Of a stretch of DNA of 23,295 nucleotides, positions 3,901 to 23,295 are shown piece by piece. The position numbers and the translations under genes are program-made. The DNA is taken from contig CAJPKN010000016.1 in NCBI GenBank assembly GCA_905370385.1, forward strand, positions 1 to 23,295, written 5' to 3'. Source of the DNA: Stomatobaculum longum (GTDB lineage: Bacteria > Bacillota > Clostridia > Lachnospirales > Lachnospiraceae). Under the pieces are notes generated by a model that was not told the DNA's origin, did not search any database, and was given only the letters and a program-made list of their open reading frames with translations. Position 1 is the stretch's first letter, and every line of letters starts with the position of its first letter.

Positions 3901-3909
3901 GGGACGACA

Positions 3910-5253: not shown

Positions 5254-5256
5254 CAC

Positions 5257-7125
5257 TCAGTCCTCGGTTTCCGTCTCAAAGTGCACAAGCATGGCAAGCG
5301 GCGTGCTCCCCCGTTTTTCCGCCGCATTCGCAACGATAAAATTCGTCGAGAAGCTCAGGCGGTTCAGACTCCAAGGTGTCGCTTCGATAACGAACTCCGT
5401 CTCGTTCTCCGTGAGCGGAAAGCTCTGTTCTCCCGCCTCCGTGCGGACCGTGATTACTTCATCGCCCCGAAGTGTACCGGGGTAGGTCACATGAACGCGA
5501 ATTTTATCGCCGTCCTGCGTCAGAATGCGGAGCGCCGCGCGCTGATCCATCCACTCATCCCGGTAGTAGCCGTACTCGACCGCGCATTTCATATCGCGGA
5601 CCGCCTTGGTCACATCCCGGAAAGCATCGTGCGCGGGATCTTCCGTGAGCACCAGCATATGCGGGTGAATGAGTCCGATCGAATAGATCGAGTCCACACG
5701 GCGCACCGTGGTGCCCTGTCCGTTCCGCGCGGGATCGAAGGTCTTGAAAAAGGTGCGCTCCGTAAAGCCGTTCATCTCATAGCTCTTCCCGACGATGATG
5801 ATTTCTTTCCCGAGCACCTCTCTCCCGTAAGTGCCGTAGGTCACATCCGCAAGCGAATTATAGCGCGCCTGATCCGGAAAGAGATAAATTTTCGGGATAA
5901 ACTGCCGGTAATACTGCTGCATCACAAGACTCAAAAAGGCGACCAGACCGAGCAGCGTAAGCGGCGCCGCATTGTCGAAGCGGTAGCGGTGTTTTGCTTC
6001 GGGATCTTGATTTCTCGCGTGACAGGAGGCCTGTCGTATTCCGTAGAGATAGGCGACCGTGAGGAGCTGAAAGGCGTAGAGCACATAAACCCAGCGGAGT
6101 TCCACGCGTATCGTGACCGCCGAAGCCGCCGCACAGCCGATCCAGAAGCCCGCAAAAAAGATGAGGTCCCGGATAAGCTTCATGCCCTCGGCCCCCCGCT
6201 TTCGGTAGCGCCGCGACAAAAAGAGCTGATAAAAGCTAATCAGGAGATAGCTGAGCATCGCGAGGTTCCAGAAGAGCACCATCACCTTGACGCGGAAGGA
6301 GGTGTCCTCCCAGGGCCGCCCGCAGAGATGCTCCGGCCCCGCATTGATGCCGAGGGTGTAGAGTCCCTCAATGCCGAAATTTGTAATCGCACTCTGAAGC
6401 GTAAAGGTGTCCTTCAGGCTGGTGCCGCCGGTTCCCTCCGGCGATACCGTACCGATCATCAAAAGGCGTATGCCCTGCACCAGGAGAAAAACCCCCGCTG
6501 CCAACAGGTAGCGCTGCCACTTTTTATCCCTGCGGATCAGCAGGCAATAGAAAAACATGGGCAGGAGCACCATGTAGCGCTCGTGGGTAAAGCAGTTCAG
6601 AAAATAGGCGAGCAGCGCAAGGAGAAAATCCCTCCCCTCGCTTTTGCCGCTGAGATAGCGGTACAGGAAGTAAGCCTGTAACAGCGCAAAGAAAACACCG
6701 AGGGTTTCCATGAGTCCGAGCAGCTGCCCGATCTGGTAATAGGCAAAGTGAGAGCCGAGAAAGAGTGCACCGACCAAAAAAGCGACCGTACGGCTTCCGG
6801 AGAGGCGCTTCGCAAAATAATAGAGGAAACTCGCGAGCCCCGCGTTCAGTAAGATATTAATCGGAACGATCCACTCCAAATGTCCGCCGATAAGCCCCAG
6901 TTCCAGCCAGGAGAGGGTCCAGTAGACAAAACGGCAGCGCGTCGAATCGAGCGGAAACGCATACTGCAAAAAGCTCTGCTCCCCCCAACAGGACCAGGTG
7001 TAGAGATCGTCCTTATAGAGGCCGCTGATGCGGAACTGCCTGTTTACAAAGAAGGCCCAGGCAATCAGCGCCGCAATCAGCAAGAGATCGCTGCGCAGGT
7101 CACGTTTGGTCTGCTTTTCTCCCAT
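5257..7125 (-). CDS. Large GT-C-like membrane protein with C-terminal soluble domain
   Basis: The chosen start gives 622 residues. Many membrane helices cover about residues 12-440, and a hydrophilic, β-rich domain fills about 440-622. Just after helix 1 comes GLYKDDLYTW (35-44): a paired acidic motif in the first outer loop, the usual place for the catalytic or metal-binding residue of GT-C glycosyltransferases, which use polyprenyl-phosphate sugars. A FTHERYM block (179-185) lies in a later loop. Acceptor and sugar are unknown. The frame extends upstream to 7182, but that part overlaps the preceding gene; the ATG at 7123-7125 has AAGGAGG about 6 bases upstream and leaves 25 bases to the previous stop, so it is taken as the start. 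It is co-transcribed with its neighbours. Confidence 0.85.
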   Translation of the reverse strand: MGEKQTKRDLRSDLLLIAALIAWAFFVNRQFRISGLYKDDLYTWSCWGEQSFLQYAFPLDSTRCRFVYWTLSWLELGLIGGHLEWIVPINILLNAGLASFLYYFAKRLSGSRTVAFLVGALFLGSHFAYYQIGQLLGLMETLGVFFALLQAYFLYRYLSGKSEGRDFLLALLAYFLNCFTHERYMVLLPMFFYCLLIRRDKKWQRYLLAAGVFLLVQGIRLLMIGTVSPEGTGGTSLKDTFTLQSAITNFGIEGLYTLGINAGPEHLCGRPWEDTSFRVKVMVLFWNLAMLSYLLISFYQLFLSRRYRKRGAEGMKLIRDLIFFAGFWIGCAAASAVTIRVELRWVYVLYAFQLLTVAYLYGIRQASCHARNQDPEAKHRYRFDNAAPLTLLGLVAFLSLVMQQYYRQFIPKIYLFPDQARYNSLADVTYGTYGREVLGKEIIIVGKSYEMNGFTERTFFKTFDPARNGQGTTVRRVDSIYSIGLIHPHMLVLTEDPAHDAFRDVTKAVRDMKCAVEYGYYRDEWMDQRAALRILTQDGDKIRVHVTYPGTLRGDEVITVRTEAGEQSFPLTENETEFVIEATPWSLNRLSFSTNFIVANAAEKRGSTPLAMLVHFETETED

Positions 7126-7150
7126 AGCTTCCCTCCTTCTTACGCCGCGC

Positions 7151-9352
7151 TCAGTTTGCGCGGTGGTAGCGGTAGAGCGCATTGCCCTCCTGTTGAATGA
7201 TCACTTCTATGCTTTCCTCTTCCCTGAGGTAGCGGATGATATCCGCCGCGCGCTCGTGTGTCGCAAGGAACTCATCGTCCGTGTAGAGGCAGTTGATGCC
7301 CATGCGGTCCAAAAACTCCTTAAAGGCGTCCAAGCTGCGGACCAGATACACATTGCCGCCGCTGCCCTCGAGATCCGTGTAACTCTGCACGTCACAGGGC
7401 AGGAAGTAACACTCCGGCTCCCCGGCGAACGAGAGCACACGCATGCGCGGTGCGTTCTTTACATAGCGGTAGATGGGCTCCGCCCCGTCGAGTATCACAA
7501 CATCGCGGACTATGCGCCCGTGCGGGTGAAAGAGAAAGGCTCTTCCGCCGTAGCCGCTGAAGCCCCGCGCGCCAGCCCAGTTGGTGAGGCAGAGCATGAA
7601 AAAGGCAAAGGCAGATGCCGGCATAAGGGCAAGGGTGAGCGCCCGACTCTCCTCCTTCCAGCAAAGGAAGGCGCCGATTAGAAGGAGGAGGTAAAAGAGT
7701 CCGTAGTAATTGCCGTCAATCTGATGCAGGCGCTCCAGCGAAAGGAGGAGTAGGCCTCCCTGCACCGCGAGGAGACAGCCGAACAGTGCCGCCGCACGCG
7801 CGTCGCTCTTTGATTCCGCATCCCGCTTCTTTCCGCGGAGCAAAAGCGCCGCAAGGAGTACCGGAATCAAGGTGGTCCCCCAGGCAATGCGTATGTGCAG
7901 TCCCTCTTCTCCGATCGGTGCGAGGAAGAGGAGAAAGAGGCGGCGTACAAGTTCCGCCCCGCGCTCCGGCAGGCTCAGGGACGCGCCCGCATTCGGCAGG
8001 GTGAGTACCGCGAGCGGGTACTTGCCGTGAAAACCGAGCGCCTCGAAGACGCCGGTGAAGACCGATACCAGCGGGTAACCCGTTAAGTGCACGGTGCGCG
8101 CGGTCACGGCAATCAAAGCAAGCACGGTGAAAAGCGGCGTAAGAATGAGCCCCCGCAAATTTTTGCCCTCGGTTTCGTTCCGCTCCTCTCCCGCCGCGTT
8201 CTCCCGCCCGAGTCTCGGCCGAAATACAGCGGTATAGAGGAGCGCAGCGAACGCCAGCCCGCCCGAGAAGACGATGGCAGTCGGCTTTAACATCAGGGTA
8301 AAGAGAACGGCACTCGCAGCGAAGGCGAGCGCCTCCGTCCGCGCCCTGCCGCTCGACTGTTCCGCCGTTAGGAGTTCCCGCACGGCGATGAGCTGAAATA
8401 AAACCGTGATGAGATCGGTCTTTGCAGAGATCGAGAGGTTCATAACCCCGGGAATCAACGCCGCCGTAAAGACCAGGCGCTTTGCGCCCTCCGTCCCCAG
8501 GAGTGCACGGCCCAGGTCAAAGAGAAGCCAGAGCAGGCCGATTCCGAGGCAAAAGGAAAACGCGAGCACGGGCCCGAAGCTGTGCTCCGTATAGAGCGGA
8601 AGTGCCAGAATCTCAAGTCCCTTCGGATAGAAATACACCTGATTCACCGAACCGAGCGACTCAAAAATGCCGCGGCCGTTGTCGAGAACAAAGGGCGAGC
8701 GGAGCGCATAGCGGAGCGAGTCGTAGTCGATTGCGATGTTCATACGTCCAAGCTGTACGAGCACCGCCGTGACGGTCGCCGCCGAGAGCACGCTCTCCGT
8801 CCGGGTCTCTCGCCGTATCGTACAGTGATAGGAGAACGCAAAGCCCTTCTCTCCGAAATAGCGGAGGAGCGGCGGCAGAAAGGCCGCAAGACAAACGAAT
8901 GCCGCAAGTATGCGCCATAGCCTTGTCCCGCCGAGGTGCAGGGCCGAGAAGAAGCCGACGAGGACTATCCATGCCGCAGCGCCGAGTACGAAACCGCGTC
9001 CCGCGCGCTCTGCCGTTAGGCGTTCGCGATCGCCGAGCAGCTCTCGCCCGATGAGGGCAAGCGCCGCGAGCCAAAGTCCCGCAATGAGTACGCTGAAGAG
9101 CGCAAGGTGACGCGCCGCAAAAGTAACACAAATCAGTGCATTCGCAATTCCGCGCTGACAGCTCTTAACCCGCCGCGCGGCGACAAACAAAAGCAAAAAC
9201 AAAACGCCGATTTCAAGAAACATGGCGCCGGTCTCCTCCGAAGAGAACTGCGCCGCAAAGAAACCGTCGTCTCCCAGAAAATAAAAGGCGAGAGCGCTCA
9301 GCAAAAGTGCGAGGAGCAAAAGGCCCCCTGTCTTAACTCTTGTAGTCAACAT
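7151..9352 (-). CDS. Large GT-C-like membrane protein (733 residues)
   Basis: The protein has roughly a dozen or more hydrophobic segments from residue 9 to about 595, then a soluble C-terminal region of about 135 residues. The motif IDYDSLRYALRSP (208-220) after the early helices resembles the D-x-L-x-Y-x-L motif of the GT39/GT-C superfamily, and SAKTDL (309-314) resembles a second motif common in such proteins. The likely role is transfer of a sugar from a lipid carrier on the outer face of the membrane; the acceptor is unknown. The frame stays open up to 9442, but the ATG at 9350-9352 is preferred because CCGGAG lies 5 bases upstream and the longer version would overlap the preceding gene by over 100 bases. 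With this start the overlap is 20 bases, which suggests translational coupling. Confidence 0.85.
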   Translation of the reverse strand: MLTTRVKTGGLLLLALLLSALAFYFLGDDGFFAAQFSSEETGAMFLEIGVLFLLLFVAARRVKSCQRGIANALICVTFAARHLALFSVLIAGLWLAALALIGRELLGDRERLTAERAGRGFVLGAAAWIVLVGFFSALHLGGTRLWRILAAFVCLAAFLPPLLRYFGEKGFAFSYHCTIRRETRTESVLSAATVTAVLVQLGRMNIAIDYDSLRYALRSPFVLDNGRGIFESLGSVNQVYFYPKGLEILALPLYTEHSFGPVLAFSFCLGIGLLWLLFDLGRALLGTEGAKRLVFTAALIPGVMNLSISAKTDLITVLFQLIAVRELLTAEQSSGRARTEALAFAASAVLFTLMLKPTAIVFSGGLAFAALLYTAVFRPRLGRENAAGEERNETEGKNLRGLILTPLFTVLALIAVTARTVHLTGYPLVSVFTGVFEALGFHGKYPLAVLTLPNAGASLSLPERGAELVRRLFLLFLAPIGEEGLHIRIAWGTTLIPVLLAALLLRGKKRDAESKSDARAAALFGCLLAVQGGLLLLSLERLHQIDGNYYGLFYLLLLIGAFLCWKEESRALTLALMPASAFAFFMLCLTNWAGARGFSGYGGRAFLFHPHGRIVRDVVILDGAEPIYRYVKNAPRMRVLSFAGEPECYFLPCDVQSYTDLEGSGGNVYLVRSLDAFKEFLDRMGINCLYTDDEFLATHERAADIIRYLREEESIEVIIQQEGNALYRYHRAN

Positions 9353-10115
9353 AGGCACTCCGGTAGGCGCGAAGGATGAGCGCCGCAATTTTCTCCGGCC
9401 ACATGCGCCGGAACATCGCGCTCTCTTCCGCCTCTCGCACATGGTTTTCGGTCAACGCCGCAGTCGCGGCGCCGCCGTGAATGCGGTAGAGCAACAGGGG
9501 GCGCTCCGAGACAAACCAGCTCCCCGGCTCCGCCGCAAAGCGATAGAGCAAATCCCAGTCCAGCACAAAGCGGAGCGAAGTCGAAAACGGCGAAACGCCG
9601 AGCAAGTCTCTGCGATACGCACAACTCGGACAGACAATGGGATTTCCGAGGCGCAAGCTGAGGCGCTTGCCCGCCGTCGTGCTTTTGAAAAAAGGCAGGC
9701 GAAGCGGAAGGCGGAGCAATTTCTTAACACACTCGGCCTTACTGCGTCTCTGTATCGCGCCGTTCTTTAAGATGCGCGCATCCGAGGTAAAGAGCGCGAG
9801 GTTCGGGTACCGTTTGACCGCACGCAGCAATTCCTCCGTGTAGTGTGCGCCGTAGACATCATCCTGATGCGCGAGCGTCACAAAGCTACCCTCCGCTTGA
9901 CTCAACGCAAAATTCCAGTCCGCGCCTATCCCGGGCTTTCCCTCCCGCACGCAGTAGCGGAAGCCGTACTTCTTTGCAAGATCCTTCAAAAAGGCGCTTG
10001 GCGTCGCCGTGCAGAGCAGGCGCTCGGAGGAGACGCTCTGTCGAACCAGGGAGCGGAGGCAGGCTTCCAAATAAGGAGAGTCTCCGTAGGCGCAAACCGC
10101 AAAGCTATGCGTCAT
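9333..10115 (-). CDS. Glycosyltransferase family 2
   Basis: This 260-residue soluble GT-A enzyme begins with a short strand and SPYLEACLRSLVRQS (13-27), as in many family-2 transferases. The metal-binding motif is HQDD (83-86) in place of a plain DxD, followed by Y88. FVLDWDLLYRFA (183-194) and YRIHGG (210-215) are the later acceptor-side blocks seen in the same subgroup. It should move a sugar from a nucleotide sugar to a growing chain or lipid carrier on the cytoplasmic side. A basic, hydrophobic segment near 131-145 could touch the membrane. The ATG overlaps the TGA of the isomerase gene by four bases (ATGA), a sign of coupled translation, and GGGAGGAAG lies about 6-8 bases upstream. Donor and linkage are unknown. 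Confidence 0.88.
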   Translation of the reverse strand: MTHSFAVCAYGDSPYLEACLRSLVRQSVSSERLLCTATPSAFLKDLAKKYGFRYCVREGKPGIGADWNFALSQAEGSFVTLAHQDDVYGAHYTEELLRAVKRYPNLALFTSDARILKNGAIQRRSKAECVKKLLRLPLRLPFFKSTTAGKRLSLRLGNPIVCPSCAYRRDLLGVSPFSTSLRFVLDWDLLYRFAAEPGSWFVSERPLLLYRIHGGAATAALTENHVREAEESAMFRRMWPEKIAALILRAYRSAYVDYKS

Positions 10116-10765
10116 TTCGAAACTTCCTCCCCGAAAAAGCGATCCTCAAGCGCAAGGCAGAGCGCGTGGTAAATCGGCAGGTGCAGTTCCTGAATCTGAT
10201 AGGTCTCCTGCCGCGGCACAATCAGGGATACATCCGCAAGCTTTGCGAGCGCACCGCCGGTCTTTCCCGTGAGCGCAATGACCTTCAGGCCGAGCGCCCG
10301 CGCAGTCTCCGCCGCGTTCAGGAGATTCTCGGAATTGCCGGAGGTGCTGATGGCGAGCAGCACATCGCCCTCCCTTCCGTAGCCGTAGACTTGCTGTGCC
10401 ATGGCAAACTTCCAGTCCGTGTCGTTGCCGAAGGCACTGGTCAGCGCGTCGTGCCCGGTGATTGCAATGGCGGGAAGGGCCCCTTCCAACATCTCCGCGA
10501 GACGCTCACCGCGTGCGCCTCCCTGCTCTGTCAGTTTCTTCCGAAATGCCTCCGGCACCCTGCGCCGAAACGCGAAGCTCTTCATGAGCTCCCCGACCAT
10601 ATGCTCGCTGTCTGCCGCACTGCCGCCGTTTCCGCCGACCAACAGCTTCTTGCCCGCCGCAAACGAAGCGCGAAGCAGGGCCTCCGCGCGATACAGTTCT
10701 TCCCGCAAACCTTCCAGCTCCGGGTAACGCGTGAGCAAGAGCTCTAAATTCTTCTCTCTCTCCAT
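10112..10765 (-). CDS. gmhA: SIS-domain phosphosugar isomerase, GmhA-like (phosphoheptose isomerase)
   Basis: The 217-residue protein has one SIS domain. GGNGGSAADSEH (44-55) and STSGNS (140-145) form the phosphosugar-binding loops. H55, E59, Q192 and H200 occupy the positions of the catalytic residues of E. coli GmhA (H61, E65, Q172, H180). GmhA converts sedoheptulose 7-phosphate to D-glycero-D-manno-heptose 7-phosphate. The protein is longer than the ~192-residue E. coli enzyme because of an insert at about 64-97. No heptose kinase, phosphatase or nucleotidyltransferase is in this window, so the heptose assignment stays tentative. The frame opens at 10804; an ATG pair at 10768 and 10765 follows AGGAG (10773-10777), and spacing favours 10765. 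It is the first gene of the seven-gene operon. Confidence 0.85.
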   Translation of the reverse strand: MEREKNLELLLTRYPELEGLREELYRAEALLRASFAAGKKLLVGGNGGSAADSEHMVGELMKSFAFRRRVPEAFRKKLTEQGGARGERLAEMLEGALPAIAITGHDALTSAFGNDTDWKFAMAQQVYGYGREGDVLLAISTSGNSENLLNAAETARALGLKVIALTGKTGGALAKLADVSLIVPRQETYQIQELHLPIYHALCLALEDRFFGEEVSK

Positions 10766-10794
10766 CATCTCGCTCCTCTCTAGTCCATCCCAAC

Positions 10795-10823
10795 AGTGTA
10801 CCAAAAAAATCCGAGCTCGTCAT
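10795..10823 (-). promoter_or_regulatory. Possible promoter of the isomerase-glycosyltransferase operon
   Basis: On the minus strand ATGACG (10818-10823) and TACACT (10795-10800) are 17 bases apart, each matching 4 of 6 consensus bases. A run of seven T lies in the spacer. It is about 30 bases before the isomerase start and just after the tRNA terminator, which would otherwise leave the operon without a transcription start. It is a moderate match only. Confidence 0.45.
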
Positions 10824-12398: not shown

Positions 12399-13448
12399 TC
12401 AGGCCGCAAACTTCAAATAGTAATAGAGCGGGTTTGCGAGCTCAAGTGCGCGAATGCCGAGGTCCAAAAACACCGGCGCGCCGATCAGGCTAAGGAGTAA
12501 GAGCGGCAAGAGGAGGGCAATGAGCAAGCTCCGTTTGCCGCGCGTCAAAATACCGATTGACATCACGAATAAGAGGCAGAGCAGATTCAGGAGCAAAAGC
12601 GCTGCGATTTCCCGCGCCGGATGTCCGAAGAGGCCGCCCGCAAGAAGCAGAGCCGAAAAGGCGAGGGAGGCAAGCCCCTGCACCGCGATGAGGTAGCGGA
12701 GCGCATAGCGCCGCTGCGCCGCACGCGGTACAAAATCAAACATGCCCTGTCTCAGGTCTTCCAGATAATAGAGCAGCGCGACAAAACTCATGAGCAAAAG
12801 CCAGAGCGCTCCCATGCCGCGAAGCGGAGCGCGGAGATAACTCACCGCCGCAGCCTCTCTGCCGCCCTCGTTTACATAGGAGATCAAATCGCCGTCGATT
12901 TGAATCTCCGCATAGCGCGCCGCAATTTCCTTCGTAAACGCGGGATCGTCCGGATCGCGCGCAAAGTTCTCCGCGAGAAAACGGCGGTAAATCTCATAGG
13001 AAATCGTCGGAAAAAGCGCACGGTATAAGTTCTCGCGGGACAGTTTGACGACGGAACTATCCTCCCGCTCCAATACGGTGACCAACCATAGATTCTTTCC
13101 GGCTGTCATGCGCTCCACCCGCGCTTCGAGGTCCGCAGGCAGTATCCAGGCAGCATCCAGTTTCCCCGCGCGGAGCAAATCCCGCGCGGCGCTCTCGCTC
13201 TTTACGCTGCGGTAATGCAGCACGGACTCGCTTTGCAACAGGTTCTCGGCGATTGAAGCCGCGAGCGGGGAGCTTTTCCCCTCCTTCTCTTCCGCCACAA
13301 TGCCGATTTCAAGAATGCCGCTCTTTTCCCGGCTTCCTGCGCGAATCAAAAGACCCATGAGCGGCAGGAGAAGAAGGAGCACCAGAAAGCTCTTTCGCCG
13401 AAAGAAACGCTTGCAGAGCAGATATTCCCAGCGAAGAAACTGCCTCAT
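12399..13448 (-). CDS. ABC-2 type exporter permease, second subunit
   Basis: This 349-residue protein has the ABC-2 layout with a large outer domain: helix 1 at about 20-36, a hydrophilic outer region (about 40-208), then four hydrophobic segments (about 211-229, 252-272, 279-300, 306-325). It resembles the YbhR/YbhS type of permease, which works as a pair. The partner permease is encoded immediately upstream with an ATGA overlap, and the ATPase before that. The two permeases are clearly different in sequence, so the channel is probably a heterodimer. The substrate is unknown. It is the last gene of the lipoprotein-ABC unit; no strong terminator follows its stop. Confidence 0.82.
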   Translation of the reverse strand: MRQFLRWEYLLCKRFFRRKSFLVLLLLLPLMGLLIRAGSREKSGILEIGIVAEEKEGKSSPLAASIAENLLQSESVLHYRSVKSESAARDLLRAGKLDAAWILPADLEARVERMTAGKNLWLVTVLEREDSSVVKLSRENLYRALFPTISYEIYRRFLAENFARDPDDPAFTKEIAARYAEIQIDGDLISYVNEGGREAAAVSYLRAPLRGMGALWLLLMSFVALLYYLEDLRQGMFDFVPRAAQRRYALRYLIAVQGLASLAFSALLLAGGLFGHPAREIAALLLLNLLCLLFVMSIGILTRGKRSLLIALLLPLLLLSLIGAPVFLDLGIRALELANPLYYYLKFAA

Positions 13449-14617
13449 CTCTCCCTCCTTCCCGCCCGCAAAACACCCGCGAGCATGAGAAAAGCAAGCG
13501 CCCAGAGGAGCAACACGGCGCCGGGACGAAAAAGTGTGCCGAACGCCTCACCCGCAAGGAGCCGCTCCAGATAGCGAAAGCACTGCCCGCTCGGGAGCGC
13601 GCGGCTTAGCGCCTGCATGCGCGCAGGGAAGAAGGCCAGCGGATAAAAGCAGCCGGAGAGAAACGCGAGGAAGATTCCGGCAAAGAGTTGCAGAAACGCG
13701 CCGGCAAGCAGCCCCTCTGCGAGCTCGTAAAGCAGAAACTGGAGTGCGGTCGCAAAGAACAGCGCAGGCAGGAGCCCCGCAAACATTTCCCGAAGCAGCG
13801 GAAGGAGCGGAAGAAAGGCGAGGGTCTGCAAGCCGAAATAGGCAAAATATTCCGAAAGAAGCTGCGCACCGCAACTCACCCCCTCGGCCGTAAGCAAGCG
13901 CCCCAGTACCGGTGCGCGACCGGCCGCAAAGGGCAGGGCGCTTACCCCCGAGGCGAAGAGCAAAAAGCAGAGTAAGGCTGCCCGGTAGTACTGCGCGAGA
14001 TCCGAACCCGCAAGCGCTACCACCGTCTCCGCATTGTAGTTTCGGTTTCGGTTTAAAACCGTGCCGAGATAGCGGAGATTGATTTCCGTCAAGAGCTTCG
14101 CATGGCGATCCCGCGCGCCGTGGGCATCAAAATAGCCCTCCGCCGCATAGATGCCCCGCTCGGTTTCCTTTAAAATGACCTCTGCCGCACTGCCCGCCTC
14201 GCGAATCAAGGCGCTGTTTAACCCCGCCTCGAGCCCGCCTCCCACATAGCGTATGGTCTTATTCTCGCCCTCCGAGAGCGCGGAGAGAAAGTCATCCGGC
14301 ACTTCGAGATAGGCTTGGATTTCGCCTCGCTTTAATTTCTCGGCAGCCGCCTCTTTGTCCAGCTGTTCATAGGAGATTGCAAGGCGGGAGCTGTCCATGT
14401 TATTTAGGATGCCGAGCCCCGTCCCGAGATAGGTCTGTCCCTGTCCGCCGACAATGCCGAGTTTCAGCTTGGCAGTCCCCTCCTCCGAGGGCGCAAATAG
14501 CCGTGTCAGGTAAAGCAAAAGCAGGGCCGCCGCCGCGAGCAGGAGAAGATTCGCAAGGAGGGCACCCGGAAGCGAGCGGAGCGCGCGCTTCCACTGCGCG
14601 CCGAAATAGCGCCTCAT
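13445..14617 (-). CDS. ABC-2 type exporter permease, first subunit
   Basis: This 390-residue protein has one N-terminal helix (about 18-38), an outer domain of about 165 residues (42-208) and about five C-terminal helices (about 209-229, 250-277, 280-300, 301-329, 364-384). The motif LSGCFYPLAFFPARMQALSR (320-339), with a conserved SG and a P before an amphipathic stretch, is typical of ABC-2 permeases. It overlaps the ATPase gene upstream and the second permease gene downstream by four bases each (ATGA), so the three should be made in fixed proportion. The family (ABC2_membrane_3-like) includes exporters of drugs, lipids and peptides; nothing in the sequence fixes the substrate. Confidence 0.85.
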   Translation of the reverse strand: MRRYFGAQWKRALRSLPGALLANLLLLAAAALLLLYLTRLFAPSEEGTAKLKLGIVGGQGQTYLGTGLGILNNMDSSRLAISYEQLDKEAAAEKLKRGEIQAYLEVPDDFLSALSEGENKTIRYVGGGLEAGLNSALIREAGSAAEVILKETERGIYAAEGYFDAHGARDRHAKLLTEINLRYLGTVLNRNRNYNAETVVALAGSDLAQYYRAALLCFLLFASGVSALPFAAGRAPVLGRLLTAEGVSCGAQLLSEYFAYFGLQTLAFLPLLPLLREMFAGLLPALFFATALQFLLYELAEGLLAGAFLQLFAGIFLAFLSGCFYPLAFFPARMQALSRALPSGQCFRYLERLLAGEAFGTLFRPGAVLLLWALAFLMLAGVLRAGRRER

Positions 14618-15285
14618 AAAAACAAGGCCTCCGCCGCCGCCGCGCTCTCCGGCTGCGGAATCTCGCGCAGCACGCCGTCCCGGAGAAACACCAGTCGATC
14701 GCAGTGCGCAAACTCCGCAAAATCGTGGGTCACAAAGAGCGCCGTGCCGCCCGCCGCTGTAAAACGCTTTAGGTAGGCATAAAACTGCGCCTTGCCCTCC
14801 ATATCGAGCGCCGCGGTCGGCTCATCCAGCAAAAGAATTTTCGGCTCCCGCAACACGGCAATTGCGATCGAGAGTCGCTTCTTCATGCCGCCCGAGAGCT
14901 TTGCGACGGGCTTATTCAAAAACGCCGCAGCGCCGAGGGCCGTAATCACGCCCTCCGGTGCGAGCCCGCGCGCCACGGTCGCCCTGTCGTGCCAGAGCAG
15001 TAAGTTATCAAAACCGGACAACTCCTCCATCAGCGGATTCGCCTGCGGCGAAAAGCTGACCAGCGCCCTGCGGCGCTTCGCATTCGCGAAGAGTTCCTCT
15101 TCCTCGTAGCGGAAGCTGCCGCTGTCCGGCCGCAGAATTCCCCCCAAAACGGAAAGAAGTGTGGTCTTCCCGCTGCCGTTTCCGCCGAGAATGCCCACAC
15201 AACTTCCGTTCGCCGCCTGCAGGTTAACCTCCCGCAGGACAGCGTTCTTTCCGTATTGCTTTTTAATCTGATGTAAAACCAGCAT
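14614..15285 (-). CDS. ABC transporter ATP-binding protein of the lipoprotein-linked exporter
   Basis: The 223-residue ATPase has a complete nucleotide-binding domain: Walker A GGNGSGKT (34-41), Q-loop Q81, signature LSGGM (130-134), Walker B ILLLDEP (150-156) and H-loop H187 in VTHD. It should power the two ABC-2 permeases encoded directly downstream, with which it overlaps. The ATG comes three bases after the TAA of the lipoprotein gene, with no good ribosome site of its own, so its translation probably depends on ribosomes finishing the lipoprotein. The C-terminus is short, with no substrate-binding extension, unlike the Wzt homologue in this window. Confidence 0.92.
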   Translation of the reverse strand: MLVLHQIKKQYGKNAVLREVNLQAANGSCVGILGGNGSGKTTLLSVLGGILRPDSGSFRYEEEELFANAKRRRALVSFSPQANPLMEELSGFDNLLLWHDRATVARGLAPEGVITALGAAAFLNKPVAKLSGGMKKRLSIAIAVLREPKILLLDEPTAALDMEGKAQFYAYLKRFTAAGGTALFVTHDFAEFAHCDRLVFLRDGVLREIPQPESAAAAEALFL

Positions 15286-15288
15286 TGA

Positions 15289-16776
15289 TTACTGCATCAT
15301 ACCCGATGCCTTCAGGGACTGCTCGAGCATATCGAGGTAGTTGCTCGGGATATCCGTCTGACGGAGCTGTCCCAGATAACCGCTCCAGTTCGCGCCCTTC
15401 ATGAATGCCTCAAACGCCGCATCATCCGAAACGTCGACAATGTCGCTCGGTGCGCTCGGCTCCTCGCCGCCCTCGCCGCGGGTGGTATCAATCGCAATCG
15501 TGACGTACGGCGTGTCGCCGCTCTTCAGGGCCACCGTGCCCTTGGTGCTCTTCGCGGTCTCCGCGAGATCGAAGTCGATTGCAAATGCGCTGAGATCCAT
15601 CATCGAGCTGCTGCTCTCGCTCTCAAGGCGAACGCTACCCTTTGCGGTAAGCTCGCTCTTCTTGAGTGCCTCAAGATCGAGCTCGTCGAGCGTAAGAACC
15701 GCAACCTTCGAACCCTCCTGGGTGAAGGTGAACTCACCGCTCATCTTCTTGCCGTTGTTCTTGCCCTTGCCGTCCACGCGGAACAGCTCGTTTCCGTCCT
15801 CGGAGAAGGTGATCTCGGAAGCGAACTCCTCGCCCTTGTTCGGTGCCTTCATCGTGAACACATAGTTCTCGCTGGCATTCGCGTTCTCAATGCGAAGCTC
15901 TCTTGCGATGACCTTGTCGCCCTCGCCGAGCCAGATGGTGGAAACGAGCTTGCCCTCAAGCTTCTGCTCCCCTTCCTTCTCGAGAGACTCCTTGAACTTC
16001 TCGTACGTTTCCTCATCGGTGCTTGCCTTGATGATATCCGCAAGATTCTGGTCGTTCTTTGCGGTCTCGACAATCTTCTTGCCGAGCTCGGTCAGCTGCT
16101 CGCCGTCGAAAGTAACCTCAAGCTTGGTTGCGTTGACGGTGTAATCGCCGACCGTCACATCTTCCTTGGACTCCTTGACATCCTTCGCAGCGTCCGTGAT
16201 GATCTTCGTATAGTTGGTCACGAGCTCGTCGAGCTTCTTGCCCTCCGGGAGTTTCTTATACTCGCTCATCATCTCGCCGAAGCTTGCGCTGTCGCCGAGC
16301 ACGCTGCCCGGGATGTGCATGTACTTATCCGCGAGTTCCGGAATCTGCAGGTAGAGATCGTTGTCGGACATGACAAGGTTCATCGTGCCGAGTGCCTTGT
16401 CGTTCAGGCTGAGCGCAATGCTCTCCTCAAGCGCCGACTTGCCGATCTTTGCGCTCATCTTCATGCCGAGGGTCTTGATCCAGGAGAGGTCCGTGCCGCC
16501 CATCAACGCGCTGAGCGTGCTCTTGCCGCCGTCCTCCAGGGTAATCACGATATCACCGCTGCCGCTCTGGACCTTATCGCTCGCAAGCTTATCTCTCGTG
16601 GTCTCGTAAGCACCCGTGAACTGCGTGGTGAACTCCTTGACCTGCTTCTGCTCAGCCTCTTTGTAGCGCTGATCCGGAGAACTTGCCTTCTTTCCGCAGC
16701 CGGTTGCCAGTGCCATTGCAGCAACGACAGATGCCGCGCCGACCGCAGCTCTCTTCCATCTTCCAAACAATCTCAT
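15289..16776 (-). CDS. Secreted lipoprotein of unknown function, linked to ABC exporter
   Basis: The 495-residue precursor has a basic N-terminus (RWKR), a hydrophobic signal (about 10-25) and a lipobox LATGC ending at C27, so it should be lipid-anchored on the outer face of the membrane. The mature part is hydrophilic, rich in E, K, D and S, with many short alternating strands such as MNLVMSDNDLYLQIP. That pattern suggests a large β-sheet fold, possibly like lipid-binding lipoproteins of the LprG/LppX kind; this is a guess from pattern only. I do not recognise the family. GGGAGGAAA lies about 5 bases before the ATG, and an extended -10 promoter is found upstream. Three bases separate it from the ATPase gene, so lipoprotein and exporter are probably one functional unit. 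Confidence 0.85.
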   Translation of the reverse strand: MRLFGRWKRAAVGAASVVAAMALATGCGKKASSPDQRYKEAEQKQVKEFTTQFTGAYETTRDKLASDKVQSGSGDIVITLEDGGKSTLSALMGGTDLSWIKTLGMKMSAKIGKSALEESIALSLNDKALGTMNLVMSDNDLYLQIPELADKYMHIPGSVLGDSASFGEMMSEYKKLPEGKKLDELVTNYTKIITDAAKDVKESKEDVTVGDYTVNATKLEVTFDGEQLTELGKKIVETAKNDQNLADIIKASTDEETYEKFKESLEKEGEQKLEGKLVSTIWLGEGDKVIARELRIENANASENYVFTMKAPNKGEEFASEITFSEDGNELFRVDGKGKNNGKKMSGEFTFTQEGSKVAVLTLDELDLEALKKSELTAKGSVRLESESSSSMMDLSAFAIDFDLAETAKSTKGTVALKSGDTPYVTIAIDTTRGEGGEEPSAPSDIVDVSDDAAFEAFMKGANWSGYLGQLRQTDIPSNYLDMLEQSLKASGMMQ

Positions 16777-16895: not shown

Positions 16896-19800
16896 TCAGG
16901 AAAAGTCTGACGCAAGCGCTTCCCAGACCGCATCCATGCCGTTATGTGCGCGAATATAGGCAGAGGAACGCTCGGACAGTGTCTCCAGTGCCGTGCGGTC
17001 GCGGTATAAGCGGAGTGCCGCCGCCGCAAAGCCCGGCGCGCTGTCCTCGATCTCCATGACCGTCTCTGCCGCCGGAATGCCCTCCGCACCGATCGAGGTC
17101 GTGAGCACGGGCGCGCCGTAATAGAGCGCCTCAATGACCTTGCCCTTTACACCCGCACCGTAGCGGAGCGGCACCACGACCAGGCGGCAGTTCTCATAGA
17201 GTTCCCGCAGCCGTTCGTCCGAGACAAAGCCCAGGATGTGAATACCGTTCTCGGGGTTGTGAAGGGCTTTCAGTTCTTCCGGCACCTTGGAGCCCGCCAC
17301 ATAGAAATTGATCGACTCTTCCGCGCGTATCTCGGGGAATACCTCTTTCAGGAACCAGAGCACCGCATCCAGGTTCGGCGGGTGGGCAAAGCCGCCCACA
17401 AAGAGCAGCCCCTCCCGCTTCTCATAGCCGAAATCGCTCACCTCCGGGAAGCTGTCCCAGACATAGGCGGTCAGGGGCTTCACGCGTATGGTGCTGTCGA
17501 TTGCGTGTATCGCCTTGCACTCCTCCTCCGAGGGGTAGAAACTGAGCGCCGCCTTACGGAGCAGCGTAAGCTCCACGCCCTTCCAGTAGGCCGAGGCCTC
17601 CCGGTGCGCCTCCTCTCCCGTCAGCTCGTACTCCCGCCGCTCACGGAGGAAGTGAAGGTCATGTCCGTAGTAGAGGACGCGGATAGACGTTCTCTCCTGA
17701 ATAAAGTCAATGTACTTGCTCGCAATGTGCGGGCGGTTCAGGTAGACAAAGTCGATATCCGAAGCGTGCTTCTCAATCCAATCCCAGATGCCCTTCTGCA
17801 TGGCCTCGCCGTAGAGCACCTCAATGCCGAGCTGGGTCAGCGCCGTGGTGTAAGGCTCCTCCGCCGCAAAGTTGTCGCCGAGGAACTTGACCTGATAGCC
17901 CTGCTTCACAAACATCTTTAAGTACTGCCAGGTCGTGCGGCTGCCCGCGTCCTTGTCAAAGGTCGGTACATAGTGATCTACCACGAGGATGATCTTTTTG
18001 CCCTTGCTCCGCTCGCGCGCCCGGAAGGGATCCGGGTTGCCGTTATTCTCAAACTGCTCGGCAAGTTCCTTCTTCCACTTTTCTTTTAATTTCTCGGTGT
18101 TCTCGATCTGGTAGCGCTTTAAGCCCGTGCCCTGCACATCCGTGCCGTTCGAGATGCCCTCAAAGTGGATGACCACCGACTTCGGCTGATAGACCACGCG
18201 GTAGCCGTGGGCGCGCACCTCAAAGGCGAGATCCGAGTCCTCGCAGTAAGCGGGCGCATAGCGCGTGTCAAAGCCGCCGATTTCCTTCCAGAGCGCGTGG
18301 CGAATCAAAATCGCCGCGCCTGACATATAGTCGACATCCTTCACGTAGTTAAACTCCGGCAGTGTCGGGTCCTGCAGTCTGCCGTAGTTCCAGCCGGAGG
18401 CATCGCTCCAGATAATGCCGCCCGCCTCCTGAAGCCGCCCGTCCGGGTAGACCAGTTTGGATCCCGTCATACCGATGCTCAAATCTTCGTCCATCAGTTT
18501 TAAAAGCCAGGAGAGCCAGCCCTCGGTCACCTTGGTGTCGTTGTTCAGGAAAAAGAGGAATTCACCGCGCGCCTTTAAGGCCGCCTGGTTACAGTTCTTT
18601 AAAAAGCCCTGGTTGGTCTCGTTTCTCGCAATCACCAGTCCCTCCGCAAAATCCGAGAGGCGCTTGGTCGCATCGCTCGAGACATCGTCCGCAATGATCA
18701 CCTCATAGGGGATGTCCTTCGTGTGCTCGAGAAGAGAAACCAGGCAGGCATAGGTGTACTCGATCTGGTTATAACAGGGGATGATAATCGAGACCCGCGG
18801 CGCTTCGAACTGCGGGAAACGCAGCTTTCCGTGCTCGCGGTAAATATCTCCGATGGCGAACTCGCCGTCTACCAGATTCTTGCCCTCCGGCGTGTGCATG
18901 AGCTTCCAATGTTTCAGCGGATGGCGCACCGCGTTCAGACGGAATAAGAGGCGCTTTCTCTCCCTGGAGCCCTTCGGGTACTTCGCGTTGAAGATTGCAC
19001 TCGCCTTCCGACGAAGACGGGAGTAGAGCGTCTGGTGGCGACTCAAATACTGTAAGGTCTCCGCGAGCTGTCCGTTCTCCGCGCGGAGATCCCGTATCAT
19101 GGTCTCCAGGTTCACGACGTGATTGTCCGTCAGGCGCTTTACCTCGGTGATTTTCTTAATCTCCGCATCCCGAATGCGAATCTCCTCCCAGGAGGCCGCG
19201 AGCTGCTCCCTGGTCTCCTCGAGGGTGCGCTCGGTCCGCGCGATGATCTCCGCGTTCTGCTGGGAGACAATGAAGCGGTCCAAGAAGCGCGCCTGTTCCT
19301 CGCCGGCCACGCCGCGCTGGAAGGCCGCCTCCTCTGCGGCAAAGCCTGCCGCCTCTTTTGCCGAAATGCCGAAGCGCAGCAAAAAGGCCTCTTCCGTGCC
19401 GAGCCCCAGGCTCTCGCGCTGCTGCTCGTAAAAGCTTCGAAGCGCGCGGTAGCGCACATAGCTCTTGTTGAGCGGCTTTGCAGAGACCCACTCGCAGTCG
19501 ATACCTGTGAGCGGAACCTTGTCGATGCCGAGCGCTTCCGCGCCCTCCGGCACAAGGAAGTTGTCGAAAATTGCGTCTATATTATGCACCTCGCCGCCGC
19601 CGATGATACGCTGCAGTGCGCGCTCCAGCGTGTCCTCAAGAGGCTGTCCCTGCGAAAGCTCGCGGCAGAAGACGCTCGTAAAACTCTCGCCGAGCACATA
19701 GGGGAAGCAGGCGCTTGTAAGGCCGTCCGCGGTCGTTATCTCCGCATCCGCGTATTGCAGCCCCCTGTCCTCGCTCCGCAGTAACGCGAGGCGCTCCGCA

Positions 19801-20735
19801 AAGGCCGCAATGTGCGCATTGCCCTCGGGGGAGAGCGCCCGCTTTTCGACCCGCCGCGTGCCGTCCGCCGCCTCCCAAATAATCGTGACCAGGCGGTACG
19901 CTGCCGTCCGGTTTCGGTTGTACTTCACAAATACAGGGCGCTCCGCCGCGCTCTCTCCTCCCTTGGTCCAACAGGCGAGAAAGGAATCCGCAAAGCGCGG
20001 GTAGAGCCCGTCGCGGCAGACCTCGTTGTACTTTGCGCCCACATTGATTGCGACATAGGTCGGAAACCCGTAGGCCGGAATCACGCGGGAGAGCTCCCCG
20101 ACTTCCGGGAGACGCCGCTCCGAGTAAATCGTATCCGCCAGATTTTTGAGCGGCTCCGGGAAGTAGAAGAAACCGCTTCCCCCCTCCGCTTCCGTAAGCG
20201 CCGAGAGGGCCTCGTAGCTCAGCGCATTCTCGCCGAGTTTTTGTCCCGCGAAGGCACGGACACCGTAGGCATTTTCCGCGGCAATCAAAAGGGTGCCGCC
20301 CGGGCTGAGAAGTTCCCGTGCCGCAACGAGCGCTGCCTCGCCATCGCTTCCGAGGGTCCCGTCAAAGAGGATATAGTCAAACTGCCCGGAGAGCGCCGTG
20401 CTCTGATTGCCGAGTTTTCCTTCCAAAGTCTCAAGTTCTCCCGAGAGCTTTAAGCTTTCTTTTCGCGCCCGCAGAAGGGCAAGCGCCGACATATCCGTAT
20501 CAACTGCCGTGACCGCGAGTCCCTTTCGGAGCAGAAGTGCCAAAAGGCCGCCGTCCCCGGCGCCGGCGAGCAGAAGTTTCGCGCCCGCGCGGAAGGGATA
20601 CCAGTCAAGCAGGCTCTCGCGGCGATCGGAAAAGAGCTCTAAGGTTTCAAGCTCCGGATTTTCGTCGAGCATGCGCGCCGTATCGTTCCCGTAGCGCTCG
20701 AGCAATTCCTTGGCTTTTTCAATTCTCTCGCTCAT
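16896..20735 (-). CDS. Multidomain glycan enzyme: methyltransferase-like, kinase-like, coiled coil, GT2, GT4
   Basis: This 1279-residue cytoplasmic protein has five parts. (1) Residues ~50-235 form a class I SAM methyltransferase-like domain: GAGDGG (58-63), VDTD (78-81), FDYILFDG (119-126), LSPGGTLL (143-150) and AENAYGVRAFAG (153-164). (2) Residues ~265-440 are a kinase-like domain with candidate K298, DN at 391-392 and GIDCEW (411-416). (3) Residues ~490-565 are a charged coiled coil. (4) A GT2 domain at ~646-880 has SIIIPCYNQ (649-657), NNDTK (731-735) and AYCEDSDLAFEV (829-840). (5) A GT4 domain at ~913-1275 has VGGFAHPPN (1113-1121) and GVKGKVIEALYYGAPVL (1195-1211). The order of parts 1-3 matches E. 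coli WbdD, which caps O-antigen chains. It overlaps wzt by four bases (ATGA), so it is probably the synthesis and capping enzyme of the exported polymer. Confidence 0.88.
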   Translation of the reverse strand: MSERIEKAKELLERYGNDTARMLDENPELETLELFSDRRESLLDWYPFRAGAKLLLAGAGDGGLLALLLRKGLAVTAVDTDMSALALLRARKESLKLSGELETLEGKLGNQSTALSGQFDYILFDGTLGSDGEAALVAARELLSPGGTLLIAAENAYGVRAFAGQKLGENALSYEALSALTEAEGGSGFFYFPEPLKNLADTIYSERRLPEVGELSRVIPAYGFPTYVAINVGAKYNEVCRDGLYPRFADSFLACWTKGGESAAERPVFVKYNRNRTAAYRLVTIIWEAADGTRRVEKRALSPEGNAHIAAFAERLALLRSEDRGLQYADAEITTADGLTSACFPYVLGESFTSVFCRELSQGQPLEDTLERALQRIIGGGEVHNIDAIFDNFLVPEGAEALGIDKVPLTGIDCEWVSAKPLNKSYVRYRALRSFYEQQRESLGLGTEEAFLLRFGISAKEAAGFAAEEAAFQRGVAGEEQARFLDRFIVSQQNAEIIARTERTLEETREQLAASWEEIRIRDAEIKKITEVKRLTDNHVVNLETMIRDLRAENGQLAETLQYLSRHQTLYSRLRRKASAIFNAKYPKGSRERKRLLFRLNAVRHPLKHWKLMHTPEGKNLVDGEFAIGDIYREHGKLRFPQFEAPRVSIIIPCYNQIEYTYACLVSLLEHTKDIPYEVIIADDVSSDATKRLSDFAEGLVIARNETNQGFLKNCNQAALKARGEFLFFLNNDTKVTEGWLSWLLKLMDEDLSIGMTGSKLVYPDGRLQEAGGIIWSDASGWNYGRLQDPTLPEFNYVKDVDYMSGAAILIRHALWKEIGGFDTRYAPAYCEDSDLAFEVRAHGYRVVYQPKSVVIHFEGISNGTDVQGTGLKRYQIENTEKLKEKWKKELAEQFENNGNPDPFRARERSKGKKIILVVDHYVPTFDKDAGSRTTWQYLKMFVKQGYQVKFLGDNFAAEEPYTTALTQLGIEVLYGEAMQKGIWDWIEKHASDIDFVYLNRPHIASKYIDFIQERTSIRVLYYGHDLHFLRERREYELTGEEAHREASAYWKGVELTLLRKAALSFYPSEEECKAIHAIDSTIRVKPLTAYVWDSFPEVSDFGYEKREGLLFVGGFAHPPNLDAVLWFLKEVFPEIRAEESINFYVAGSKVPEELKALHNPENGIHILGFVSDERLRELYENCRLVVVPLRYGAGVKGKVIEALYYGAPVLTTSIGAEGIPAAETVMEIEDSAPGFAAAALRLYRDRTALETLSERSSAYIRAHNGMDAVWEALASDFS

Positions 20736-22036
20736 GCCTTCTCCTCTCTCACGGCCTCAACCTCCGAGCCCATGTCGTAAAAGCCCACGGTGTTCTTGTT
20801 CGAGATGACCGTTAAGCTCAGCACATTGTAAAGACGGTGGTACACCACGTGCTCGCCGTTCTCATAGCCGGTGCAACTCATGGAGAGCAGATATTCGCCG
20901 CCCTGCAGATTCATCTTCTGCCGGAACGAAACCGTGTAGACATCGCCGTCTTTGACCGGCTTAATCTCCGTGCCCTCAAAGAGGGTGTTGGTTCCCGTGA
21001 TATCCGTCCCCTTCTTATCCCGCAGGGTGTAGGTGAAAATCGGATTTTCAATCGGCGCGTGGAAGCGAACGCGCTCCCGTATCGTGAACATCTCCCCCTT
21101 TAAGAGGAGGTTCGTCACATTGCCGCGCGCGTCAAGGGTTCCGAAGTCCTCAAAGCTCGCTCTGCCGTCGCCGTACTCCTGCACTTCGGGATTCAGGTTC
21201 ATGCGGTCTTTCATGCGCTTATCGGAGACCGTCGCTTCGACCGGTAAGCCGAGTGCCTCCTTCTTCTCTTCAATCAGTGCCTCGGCAAGCTCGTCGGTCT
21301 GGTTTGCCAATATCTTCTTATAGAGGTCCACCATCTTGCCGGCCTCGCCCTGCGCCACAAAATGACCGCGATTTAAGAGCACTACCTTGTCACAGTACTT
21401 GATGATGCTGCCCATGTCGTGGCTCACCATGAGTATGGTCGTGCCGTTCTTCATCATCTCCTCCATGCGGCGGTAGCACTTCGCCTGGAAGAAGACATCA
21501 CCGACCGAGAGCGCCTCGTCGACAATTAAGATCTCCGGGTCCACATTGATGGCGAGCGCAAAGGCGAGGCGCACGAACATACCGGAAGAATAGGTCTTGA
21601 CCGGCTGGTTCACAAAGTCCCCGATGTCCGCAAAGCGGAGAATGTCATCCATTCTCCGCTCCATCTCCTGCCGCGAGAAGCCCATCATGGTACCGTTCAT
21701 ATAGATGTTCTCGAGGCCGGTGTATTCGCTGTTAAAGCCCGCGCCGAGCTCCAGGAGCGCCGAAATATTGCCGGAGACTTCCGCCGTCCCCGTGGTCGGA
21801 CTCAGCACGCCGGTGATGATTTTCAGTATGGTCGACTTCCCCGATCCGTTCGTCCCGATGATACCGACCGTCTCTCCCTTCTTCACATCAAAGGAGATGT
21901 CCGAGAGTGCAAAGAAGTCACGGTGATAGGACTTGTGGGTCAGGCTCACGGCCTCTTTCAGGCGGTCTATCGGTTTGTCGTAGAGCTTATAAATTTTACT
22001 GACTCCCTGCACCGAGATTGCCAGATTTTTATCCAT
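20732..22036 (-). CDS. wzt: Wzt/TagH-type ABC polysaccharide exporter ATPase with C-terminal carbohydrate-binding domain
   Basis: The 434-residue protein has an ABC ATPase domain (about 1-245) with Walker A GTNGSGKS (61-68), the YSSGM signature (149-153), Walker B ILIVDEAL (169-176) and H206. YSSGM in place of LSGGQ is usual for Wzt/TagH proteins. After a linker, a β-rich domain (about 285-425) includes NPIFTYTLRDKKGTDITGTN (331-350), typical of the Wzt C-terminal domain. In E. coli O8 and O9a that domain binds the capped end of the O-polysaccharide and makes export depend on chain termination. It should power the Wzm permease encoded 19 bases upstream. GAGGAG precedes the ATG by about 8 bases. 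Confidence 0.93.
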   Translation of the reverse strand: MDKNLAISVQGVSKIYKLYDKPIDRLKEAVSLTHKSYHRDFFALSDISFDVKKGETVGIIGTNGSGKSTILKIITGVLSPTTGTAEVSGNISALLELGAGFNSEYTGLENIYMNGTMMGFSRQEMERRMDDILRFADIGDFVNQPVKTYSSGMFVRLAFALAINVDPEILIVDEALSVGDVFFQAKCYRRMEEMMKNGTTILMVSHDMGSIIKYCDKVVLLNRGHFVAQGEAGKMVDLYKKILANQTDELAEALIEEKKEALGLPVEATVSDKRMKDRMNLNPEVQEYGDGRASFEDFGTLDARGNVTNLLLKGEMFTIRERVRFHAPIENPIFTYTLRDKKGTDITGTNTLFEGTEIKPVKDGDVYTVSFRQKMNLQGGEYLLSMSCTGYENGEHVVYHRLYNVLSLTVISNKNTVGFYDMGSEVEAVREEKA

Positions 22037-22055
22037 GAATCAGTCTCCTCTTTTC

Positions 22056-22859
22056 TCACAGCACATCGGAAAAATGCGGGCGCAGCTTGCGGAACAGGCG
22101 AAGCCCGAGCGCAAGCAGGGCAAGTGTCACCGCCCAGAAATAAAGGCTCTGCATGGGCCGCTCAAAGAACCAGTTCCCGGCTATCATGCTGTCCCGGTAA
22201 CCGCTCACAATGTAGTGAATGGGATTTAATTTCAGTATCGGCAGGAGCTTCGGCGGGAAGTTCGGGAACATCTCGGGCGCCCACATGATGGGAACCAGCC
22301 ACATGCCGAACTGGAGACAAATACTCACAATCTGCGACATGTCCCGGAAAAAGACCTGCACCGCCGATGTGACCAGCGTGAGCGCGAGAATCAAGACCGA
22401 GAGCGCCGCACTGTAGTAAATGAGCTGCAGCCAGGTGATGAGCGGCAGTCTCCCGTAGCAGAAGAACATCGCAATCATAATCATGACAAAGATTGCGTGC
22501 ACCAGAAGGCAGGACACGAGCTTGATGACCGGCAACACCTCTACGTTAAACACCACCTTCTTAACCAGATAGTGGTACTCCTGCAGACAGTTGGTGCCGG
22601 CATTCATTGCCTCCTGGAAAAAGAACCAGGGGACGATGCCGGGGACCAGCCAGAGCACATAGGGCACGCCGGGAATCGGCGGCACCGACTTAAAGCCGAG
22701 CTGAAAGATCATGAAGTAAATGAGTACGGTCACAATCGGTTGGACAAACATCCAGATAATGCCGAAGTAGGAGCCCACAAAGCGCTTTCGAAAATCCGCC
22801 TTGGCGAGCTCAAAGATGAGCTTTCGGTTCCCGAAGAGCTCACGCACAAGTTCCGTCAT
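22056..22859 (-). CDS. wzm: Wzm/TagG-type ABC polysaccharide exporter permease
   Basis: The 267-residue protein has six hydrophobic segments (about 31-55, 67-88, 111-133, 143-165, 175-195, 238-256), as expected for an ABC-2 permease that moves polysaccharide or teichoic acid across the membrane. Family marks are YFGIIWMFVQP (31-41), VFFRDM (169-174) and LNPIHYIVSGYRD (211-223). GAGGAG lies 6 bases before the ATG and partly overlaps the end of the preceding gene, from which it is separated by 10 bases. It pairs with the Wzt ATPase downstream. Because that ATPase has a carbohydrate-binding domain, a capped polysaccharide is a more likely cargo than plain teichoic acid, but TagG remains an alternative name. 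Confidence 0.93.
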   Translation of the reverse strand: MTELVRELFGNRKLIFELAKADFRKRFVGSYFGIIWMFVQPIVTVLIYFMIFQLGFKSVPPIPGVPYVLWLVPGIVPWFFFQEAMNAGTNCLQEYHYLVKKVVFNVEVLPVIKLVSCLLVHAIFVMIMIAMFFCYGRLPLITWLQLIYYSAALSVLILALTLVTSAVQVFFRDMSQIVSICLQFGMWLVPIMWAPEMFPNFPPKLLPILKLNPIHYIVSGYRDSMIAGNWFFERPMQSLYFWAVTLALLALGLRLFRKLRPHFSDVL

Positions 22860-22869
22860 AACAATCTCC

Positions 22870-23295
22870 TCAAACTCTCAGCACGGCAAGCGCAAAAATG
22901 CGGATTCCCACGCAGAGATTCAATATCACGAAGCCGTAGGGCACAAGGCGCTTAAACGGCAATTCGCTCTGAACCGTCTTATTCTGTAAGCCGAAGAGGA
23001 AGAGCGGCAGAAGGGGCAGGAAGTATCTGCCCTGTACGCCCTCAATCCAGAGCGCATCGCGAGAAGTCCAGGCGAGCAGCATCGCAAAGAGAATCCCGAA
23101 GAAACTGATGCATCCGATCAGGAGCGCATAGAAGCGCGCAAAGCGGCCCGGCTCTCTGACTTCCATGTAGTGCGGCCCGAACGTCTCCTCGTCGGCAAGC
23201 GCCTCTTGCGCCGCTTCCTCTTCCCGCGTTTCACGCAGCATTTCCGCCGCCTCTGCGATATGTTCCGTTGTCGCAGCGGTCAGCACTTCGCCCGC
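22870..23295 (-). CDS. DUF2142-like membrane protein, C-terminal part (truncated by window edge)
   Basis: The frame runs off the right edge with no start that must be used: the GTG at 23284-23286 is in frame but the codons before it are open to the end. The 141 visible residues hold an acidic, alanine- and glutamate-rich stretch (first ~45), a helix, the motif GVQGRYFLPLLPL near residue 90, and two more helices. G-x-QGRYFLP is the hallmark of the C-terminus of DUF2142 proteins, large GT-C-like membrane proteins often found in surface-glycan clusters; their role is not established. It lies 10 bases before wzm and is likely co-transcribed with it. Confidence 0.75.
   Translation of the reverse strand, partial: AGEVLTAATTEHIAEAAEMLRETREEEAAQEALADEETFGPHYMEVREPGRFARFYALLIGCISFFGILFAMLLAWTSRDALWIEGVQGRYFLPLLPLFLFGLQNKTVQSELPFKRLVPYGFVILNLCVGIRIFALAVLRV

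Follow-up and report, generated by a model that had tools for sequence, protein, structure and literature searches.

A probable polymerase and chain terminator of the O7 ORF6 type fused in one protein of Stomatobaculum longum

Could one protein of a Gram-positive bacterium both build a surface polysaccharide and end it, and to which family of terminators would it belong? This question is raised by a stretch of 23,295 nucleotides of Stomatobaculum longum (contig CAJPKN010000016.1), hereafter the window, in which a protein of 1279 amino acids is encoded beside the ABC exporter proteins Wzt and Wzm. The host belongs to Lachnospiraceae, matching the Gram-positive origin proposed in an earlier sequence-only reading. 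We consider it probable that the fused protein is polymerase and chain terminator for a lipid-linked surface polysaccharide, and a Gram-positive member of the methyltransferase-kinase family of the Klebsiella pneumoniae O7 ORF6 type, not of the WbdD kinase family. This view is built on the domains, folds, conserved catalytic residues, gene linkage and broad-family profile membership of the protein. The sequence-only reading is partly supported: its outline holds, its choice of the WbdD family does not, and the ruler and the cap reading that it proposes are putative.

Domain plan and kinase family

The three open reading frames lie exactly where the sequence-only reading placed them (16896-20735, 20732-22036 and 22056-22859), and wzt overlaps the big fused gene by 4 bases.

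16896..20735, minus strand: fused protein, 1279 amino acids, with methyltransferase, APH-like kinase, coiled coil, GT2 and GT4 (open reading frame call, Pfam, AlphaFold)
20091..20735, minus strand: class I S-adenosylmethionine (SAM) methyltransferase domain, residues about 1-215 (retains G58-x-G60-x-G62 and D79; has L56 in place of the motif-I acid)
19296..20045, minus strand: kinase domain, residues about 231-480 (fold and conserved residues)
18981..19253, minus strand: coiled-coil helix, residues 495-585, low model confidence (AlphaFold, hydrophobicity periodicity)
18156..18800, minus strand: glycosyltransferase module GT2, residues 646-860 (Pfam)
16941..17564, minus strand: glycosyltransferase module GT4, residues 1058-1265 (Pfam 1109-1246; NCBIfam 1058-1265, below the model's cut-off)
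20732..22036, minus strand: Wzt ATPase with C-terminal carbohydrate-binding domain, 434 amino acids (Pfam ABC_tran and Wzt_C)
20771..21181, minus strand: Wzt_C domain, Wzt residues 286-422 (Pfam, E 5.6e-42)
22056..22859, minus strand: Wzm permease, 267 amino acids (Pfam ABC2_membrane)
22870..23295, minus strand: DUF2142 membrane protein, truncated by the window end (Pfam)

The order methyltransferase, kinase, coiled coil, GT2, GT4, which had been proposed from the letters, is matched by Pfam, the AlphaFold model and fold matches, and both glycosyltransferases (GT2 646-860, GT4 1109-1246 in Pfam) are on the same chain as claimed. Hidden Markov model searches found methyltransferase, GT2, GT4, ABC_tran, Wzt_C and ABC2_membrane, but Pfam and NCBIfam gave no kinase family for residues 225-490, the one Pfam match there being weak and to Gln-synt_C (E 0.05-0.14). 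The kinase assignment is accordingly based on fold and conserved residues. The AlphaFold model of residues 1-640 had a mean predicted local distance difference test score of 82, and the top Foldseek matches of a kinase-only model were APH kinases. K298, D387, N392, D413 and E415 were invariant in 56/56 rows of the kinase alignment, and the window motifs are N-x-D-x4-N and D-x-E-W. The kinase fold claimed for residues 265-440 was therefore borne out by structure prediction, as an APH-like fold with invariant catalytic residues.

The kinase profile (A3) was made from 14 of the 23 listed homologues, among which P0001 is the window's own protein, and 41 kinase domains, with L034, L042 and L071 excluded. 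A sequence search of the PDB with A3 also gave JAK2 weakly at positions 290-421 (E 0.02-0.04), amid many glycosyltransferase and methyltransferase matches, and this candidate was rejected.

Could the protein be a true WbdD homologue, with a eukaryotic-type kinase and methyltransferase fused to a polymerase? WbdD (4azs) stood at rank 5 in Foldseek for the model of residues 1-640 (E 4.2e-8, 529 columns, template modelling score 0.20-0.26), the gene order wzm-wzt-terminator is that of E. coli HS, and the window methyltransferase profile matched WbdD over 78 columns (Prob 90), though this match lies over the general SAM motif. However, the kinase profile had no match with WbdD in hhalign (Prob 0.5), the broad family profile described below covers only 33 WbdD columns, WbdD has H-x-D-x4-N and DFG where the window has N-x-D-x4-N and D-x-E-W, and the best kinase folds are those of APH kinases. 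WbdD was also not among the kinase-only fold matches listed by Foldseek, which does not by itself exclude it. We regard this homology as very improbable: of the proposed WbdD-like module the overall plan may hold, at low template modelling score, and the kinase family does not.

By profile, the kinase belongs to a broad family. Methyltransferase and kinase matches were found in the long proteins L126, L127 and L128 from other families of the phylum (33-46 bits) and L142 from the same order as the window (105 bits). Ahead of the module L126 (6828-10958) has WbsX-RgpF, L127 glycosyltransferase-like stretches below Pfam cut-offs, L128 (4609-9276) three GT2 stretches, and L142 (7430-10960) RgpF. 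The alignment of these four proteins (A5) matched the window kinase family at 99.6% over 247 columns. In the A5 search 7992 candidates were scored and 1224 proteins had E<=1e-10, and the 120 listed of these were the sample for counts. The relatives' kinase profile was matched at E<=0.01 by 119 of the 120; within residues 250-650, 119 likewise had D-x4-N and then D-x-E, against 4 of 100 long listed proteins in the control region 700-1100.

The SAM-site residues Y28, Y66, G91, G93, E112 and Y158 (O7 numbering) map onto A5-invariant residues with one constant offset of 6. All six at the published spacing were present in 100 of the 120 listed proteins, while among 2400 shuffled N-termini none had six and one had five. 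The broad family holding the window kinase thus has the residues published for O7 ORF6 at the same spacing. Three features (this spacing, the fold of the kinase and a layout in common) lead us to infer that ORF6, known here by its description in PMC11231755, belongs to the same family. When ORF6 was sought by numbering, 4 of the 120 listed proteins had the six residues at the published numbers, and none had Asp at 441.

Coiled coil and arrangement of the module among relatives

In the AlphaFold model the kinase helices stop at 486 and the coil starts at 495, with a helix over 495-585 of low confidence (10-residue blocks down to 39). The alignment-averaged hydrophobicity had a period of 3.5 over 495-570, equalled in strength by 0 of 2000 shuffles, and two shorter coil stretches gave a periodicity p of 0.0035. 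Because of the period of 3.5 the coiled coil, also part of the sequence-only reading, is supported. Among 36 rows, 27 measured 165 residues from F472 to G636, 5 had 172, 2 had 166, and 168 and 162 occurred once each; 5 of the 9 departures from 165 are exactly one heptad. The rows, which include the window's own protein as P0001, are not independent, and L034 was dropped. The coil core is strongly conserved around T536-E544 in the homologue alignment, which suggests that it may be more than a passive spacer.

The near-constant length and conserved core would fit a role in docking no less than one as a ruler. The kinase-fold domain might then modify an internal or side-chain sugar, and the coil would be a dimerisation or membrane-scaffold element only. 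We find this unlikely, since the coil sits between the cap module and the glycosyltransferases, as in the described terminators, the kinase is linked to one Wzt_C subtype (see below), and by family likeness the characterised member, O7 ORF6, caps the chain end (PMC11231755).

In all 7 genomes of the nearest genus the order is wzm-wzt-methyltransferase/kinase, with the same 4-base overlap between wzt and the methyltransferase frame. The complete methyltransferase-to-GT4 fusion is found in the window's genus, whole in 6 of the 7 (L035-L040) and interrupted in L034. The latter is from the nearest genome, G001 (95.8% identity over the gene), in which the big gene (L034 7373-11211) is broken in the kinase region into two overlapping frames; this could be an error of sequencing or a true loss of capping. 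A related locus in Lachnospiraceae bacterium ACC2 showed 86% identity in the best segment. In L041-L047 the methyltransferase is separate and followed by kinase-coil-GT2-GT4 (one cut by the contig end), and free methyltransferase-kinase proteins of about 700 amino acids exist among relatives. As a pattern of gene arrangement, this series from free through split to fused supports, short of proof, a working contact of cap module and polymerase.

Linkage to Wzt_C, proposed mechanism and opposing evidence

Pfam predicts the C-terminal domain of the window Wzt as Wzt_C (E 5.6e-42), in agreement with the domain noted before. The kinase scored >100 bits in 49 of 145 relative genomes and 45 of these 49 also had a Wzt_C match, compared with 15 of the 96 below this level. 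There were 72 Wzt_C matches, and the 70 above the family cut-off were analysed, with the two below left out. By profile score 45 loci belonged to one subtype and 24 to another, and L104 scored too low to class. Of the 45 loci of the first subtype, 42 have the kinase no more than 4 kb downstream and L079 has it directly upstream, while in L077 the sequence stops 1.5 kb downstream of the Wzt_C gene; in the second subtype the kinase is linked in 0 of 24. The profile of the 45-locus subtype matched the C-domain of E. coli O9 Wzt (Prob 97).

A further Wzm/Wzt pair, whose Wzt_C is of the other subtype, occurs in genomes G001 (L091) and G006 (L093), where the surrounding 20 kb contain no kinase. It means that two ABC-exported glycans are apparently made in one cell.

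For the fused protein as polymerase and terminator, we infer the reactions and their order, a ruler role of the coil and recognition of the cap by Wzt as follows. The GT2 and GT4 modules would extend the lipid-linked chain at the membrane. Once the growing end has come to the distal end of the coil, the terminal sugar would be phosphorylated by the APH-like kinase. The methyltransferase would then probably methylate the terminal phosphate. The capped chain would be accepted by Wzt, probably via its C-terminal domain, and exported by Wzm/Wzt.

Several observations weigh against this scheme, the first of them in the methyltransferase. Pfam found methyltransferase families in residues 38-165 (best E 3.8e-6; PF08241 above its cut-off, the remaining ones below theirs), and G58, G60, G62 and the acidic D79 are retained in an intact modelled fold. 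But L56 stands in place of the motif-I acid, and the tyrosine is missing at three SAM-site positions. The motif-I position is non-acidic in all 8 leading rows (the window and 7 close homologues) of an alignment that included 12 of the 23 homologues. The window has 2 of the 6 published O7 SAM-site residues (G58 and G60), with D79 standing for E; together with its 22 closest distinct homologues it has 2-4 of 6 at the published spacing, which is the shuffle level, and WbdD has 3 of 6. Given the strong match of the kinase profile, we read this shortfall as divergence inside the O7-type family. From the lost acid and tyrosines it follows that phosphorylation is better supported than methylation, and methylation by the window domain is uncertain. 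The cap might even be phosphate alone or another group, with a methyltransferase decayed in this lineage, as these losses beside invariant kinase residues would allow. We think this possible but rather doubtful, because the glycines, D79 and the fold are kept and all 7 genomes of the genus have the domain (one on a separate frame).

The other opposing points concern the coil, Wzt_C and distribution. Of the 19 free methyltransferase-kinase relatives (L049-L067), 13 have 153-181 residues beyond the kinase, in a tail whose printed part does not look coil-like, so the ruler coil is no constant partner of the module. Four of the 49 kinase genomes have no Wzt_C (G017, G082, G107, G144), with a nearby Wzt lacking the C-domain in G082 (L061) and G144 (L143), and L072, of the linked subtype, has no kinase within 9.5 kb while the same genome has one elsewhere. 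Partial Mantel analysis of 36 of the 46 loci L034-L079 (dropping L034, L042 and loci in which one or more of the five domains was missing) gave 0.18 (p 0.014) for kinase-Wzt_C, 0.27 for kinase-Wzm and -0.05 for methyltransferase-Wzt_C, and so did not single out Wzt_C as the kinase's partner among these 36 loci. The co-occurrence of kinase and Wzt_C may partly reflect shared operon descent. Across the phylum the kinase profile matched in only 19 of 398 genomes sampled.

The tails of these 13 free proteins carry a recurring D-x-G-x-GF ... R-x-DP pattern, which is perhaps an Ig-like carbohydrate-binding module (CBM) of the O7 ORF6 type. The methyltransferase-kinase genes of L126, L143 and L061 lie near a Wzt without C-terminal domain; cap reading by Wzt_C is therefore not general.

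A wider scheme can be put forward tentatively, and we would not expect all of it to hold. A portable cassette of methyltransferase, APH-like kinase and coil may have been joined repeatedly to unrelated Bacillota polymerases (GT2-GT4, three GT2 stretches, WbsX-RgpF, RgpF). In the window lineage the coil would be held at 165, lengthened chiefly by whole heptads, and the methyltransferase decayed, giving a phosphate-capped glycan of stepped length recognised by its Wzt subtype.

Around the locus, a DUF2142 protein is ahead of wzm in L034 and L036 as well. A separate row of glycan genes at 2094-10804 encodes a SIS-domain protein, GT2s, large membrane proteins and a LicD-like protein, which matched NF045866 below its cut-off, a family that we take to be LicD. 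A lipoprotein-like gene and ABC transporter genes (12399-16776) follow about 120 bases after the big gene and are not thought part of the capping and export system.

Comparison with known terminators

Little was found in the literature on Lachnospiraceae surface glycans, and no paper on a methyltransferase-kinase module in this family was among the matches listed in our searches. A phosphate-based end group on the glycan is predicted. The ruler idea would be testable without engineering, since natural relatives differ in coil length (165 or 172 residues) and carry the module in free, split or fused form.

The known systems are compared by what the available portions of their publications describe. 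WbdD of E. coli O9a shares the order methyltransferase, kinase, coiled coil, but its polymerase WbdA is a separate protein (PMC3482155), whereas in the window GT2 and GT4 are on the terminator chain, in place of a separate polymerase recruited by its C-terminus. WbbB of K. pneumoniae O12 shares terminator, coil and two polymerase glycosyltransferases on one chain; its cap is a beta-linked 3-deoxy-D-manno-oct-2-ulosonic acid (beta-Kdo) added by a glycosyltransferase, unlike the kinase module here (PMC11231755). WsaE of Geobacillus stearothermophilus, also Gram-positive, has a methyltransferase fused to two glycosyltransferases beside Wzm/Wzt with overlapping genes; in those portions its S-layer glycan is capped by 2-O-methylation of rhamnose and no kinase is described (PMC2943079). 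By this description, the window protein differs from the WsaE plan by its kinase-fold domain.

O7 ORF6 is the nearest in plan. It is described as a methyltransferase followed by an unannotated AmiN-like kinase, a CBM, a coiled coil and a pair of GT2 modules; its action on the chain end is phosphorylation with partial methylation, and the D441A mutant no longer phosphorylates (PMC11231755). Both proteins have an N-terminal methyltransferase, then a kinase of AmiN-like fold missed by domain libraries, a coil, two C-terminal glycosyltransferases and an ABC exporter. The window differs in its GT2 plus GT4 instead of two GT2, its diverged methyltransferase and its Gram-positive host. It also has no Ig-like CBM between kinase and coil in the model, where residue 486 leads to 495; this module of ORF6 is reported by its authors in no other terminator (PMC11231755). 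The self-contained terminator-polymerase machine feeding an exporter that has a carbohydrate-binding domain, as proposed in the sequence-only reading, is still the best fit, but the fusion is not new in kind, since ORF6 has this layout. The described ORF6 orthologues come from cyanobacteria and from alpha- and gammaproteobacteria, and one gene cluster of an archaeon contains homologues (PMC11231755). By this comparison, what is new is most likely the Gram-positive member, which would extend the O7-type terminator from proteobacteria, cyanobacteria and the archaeal cluster to Lachnospiraceae.
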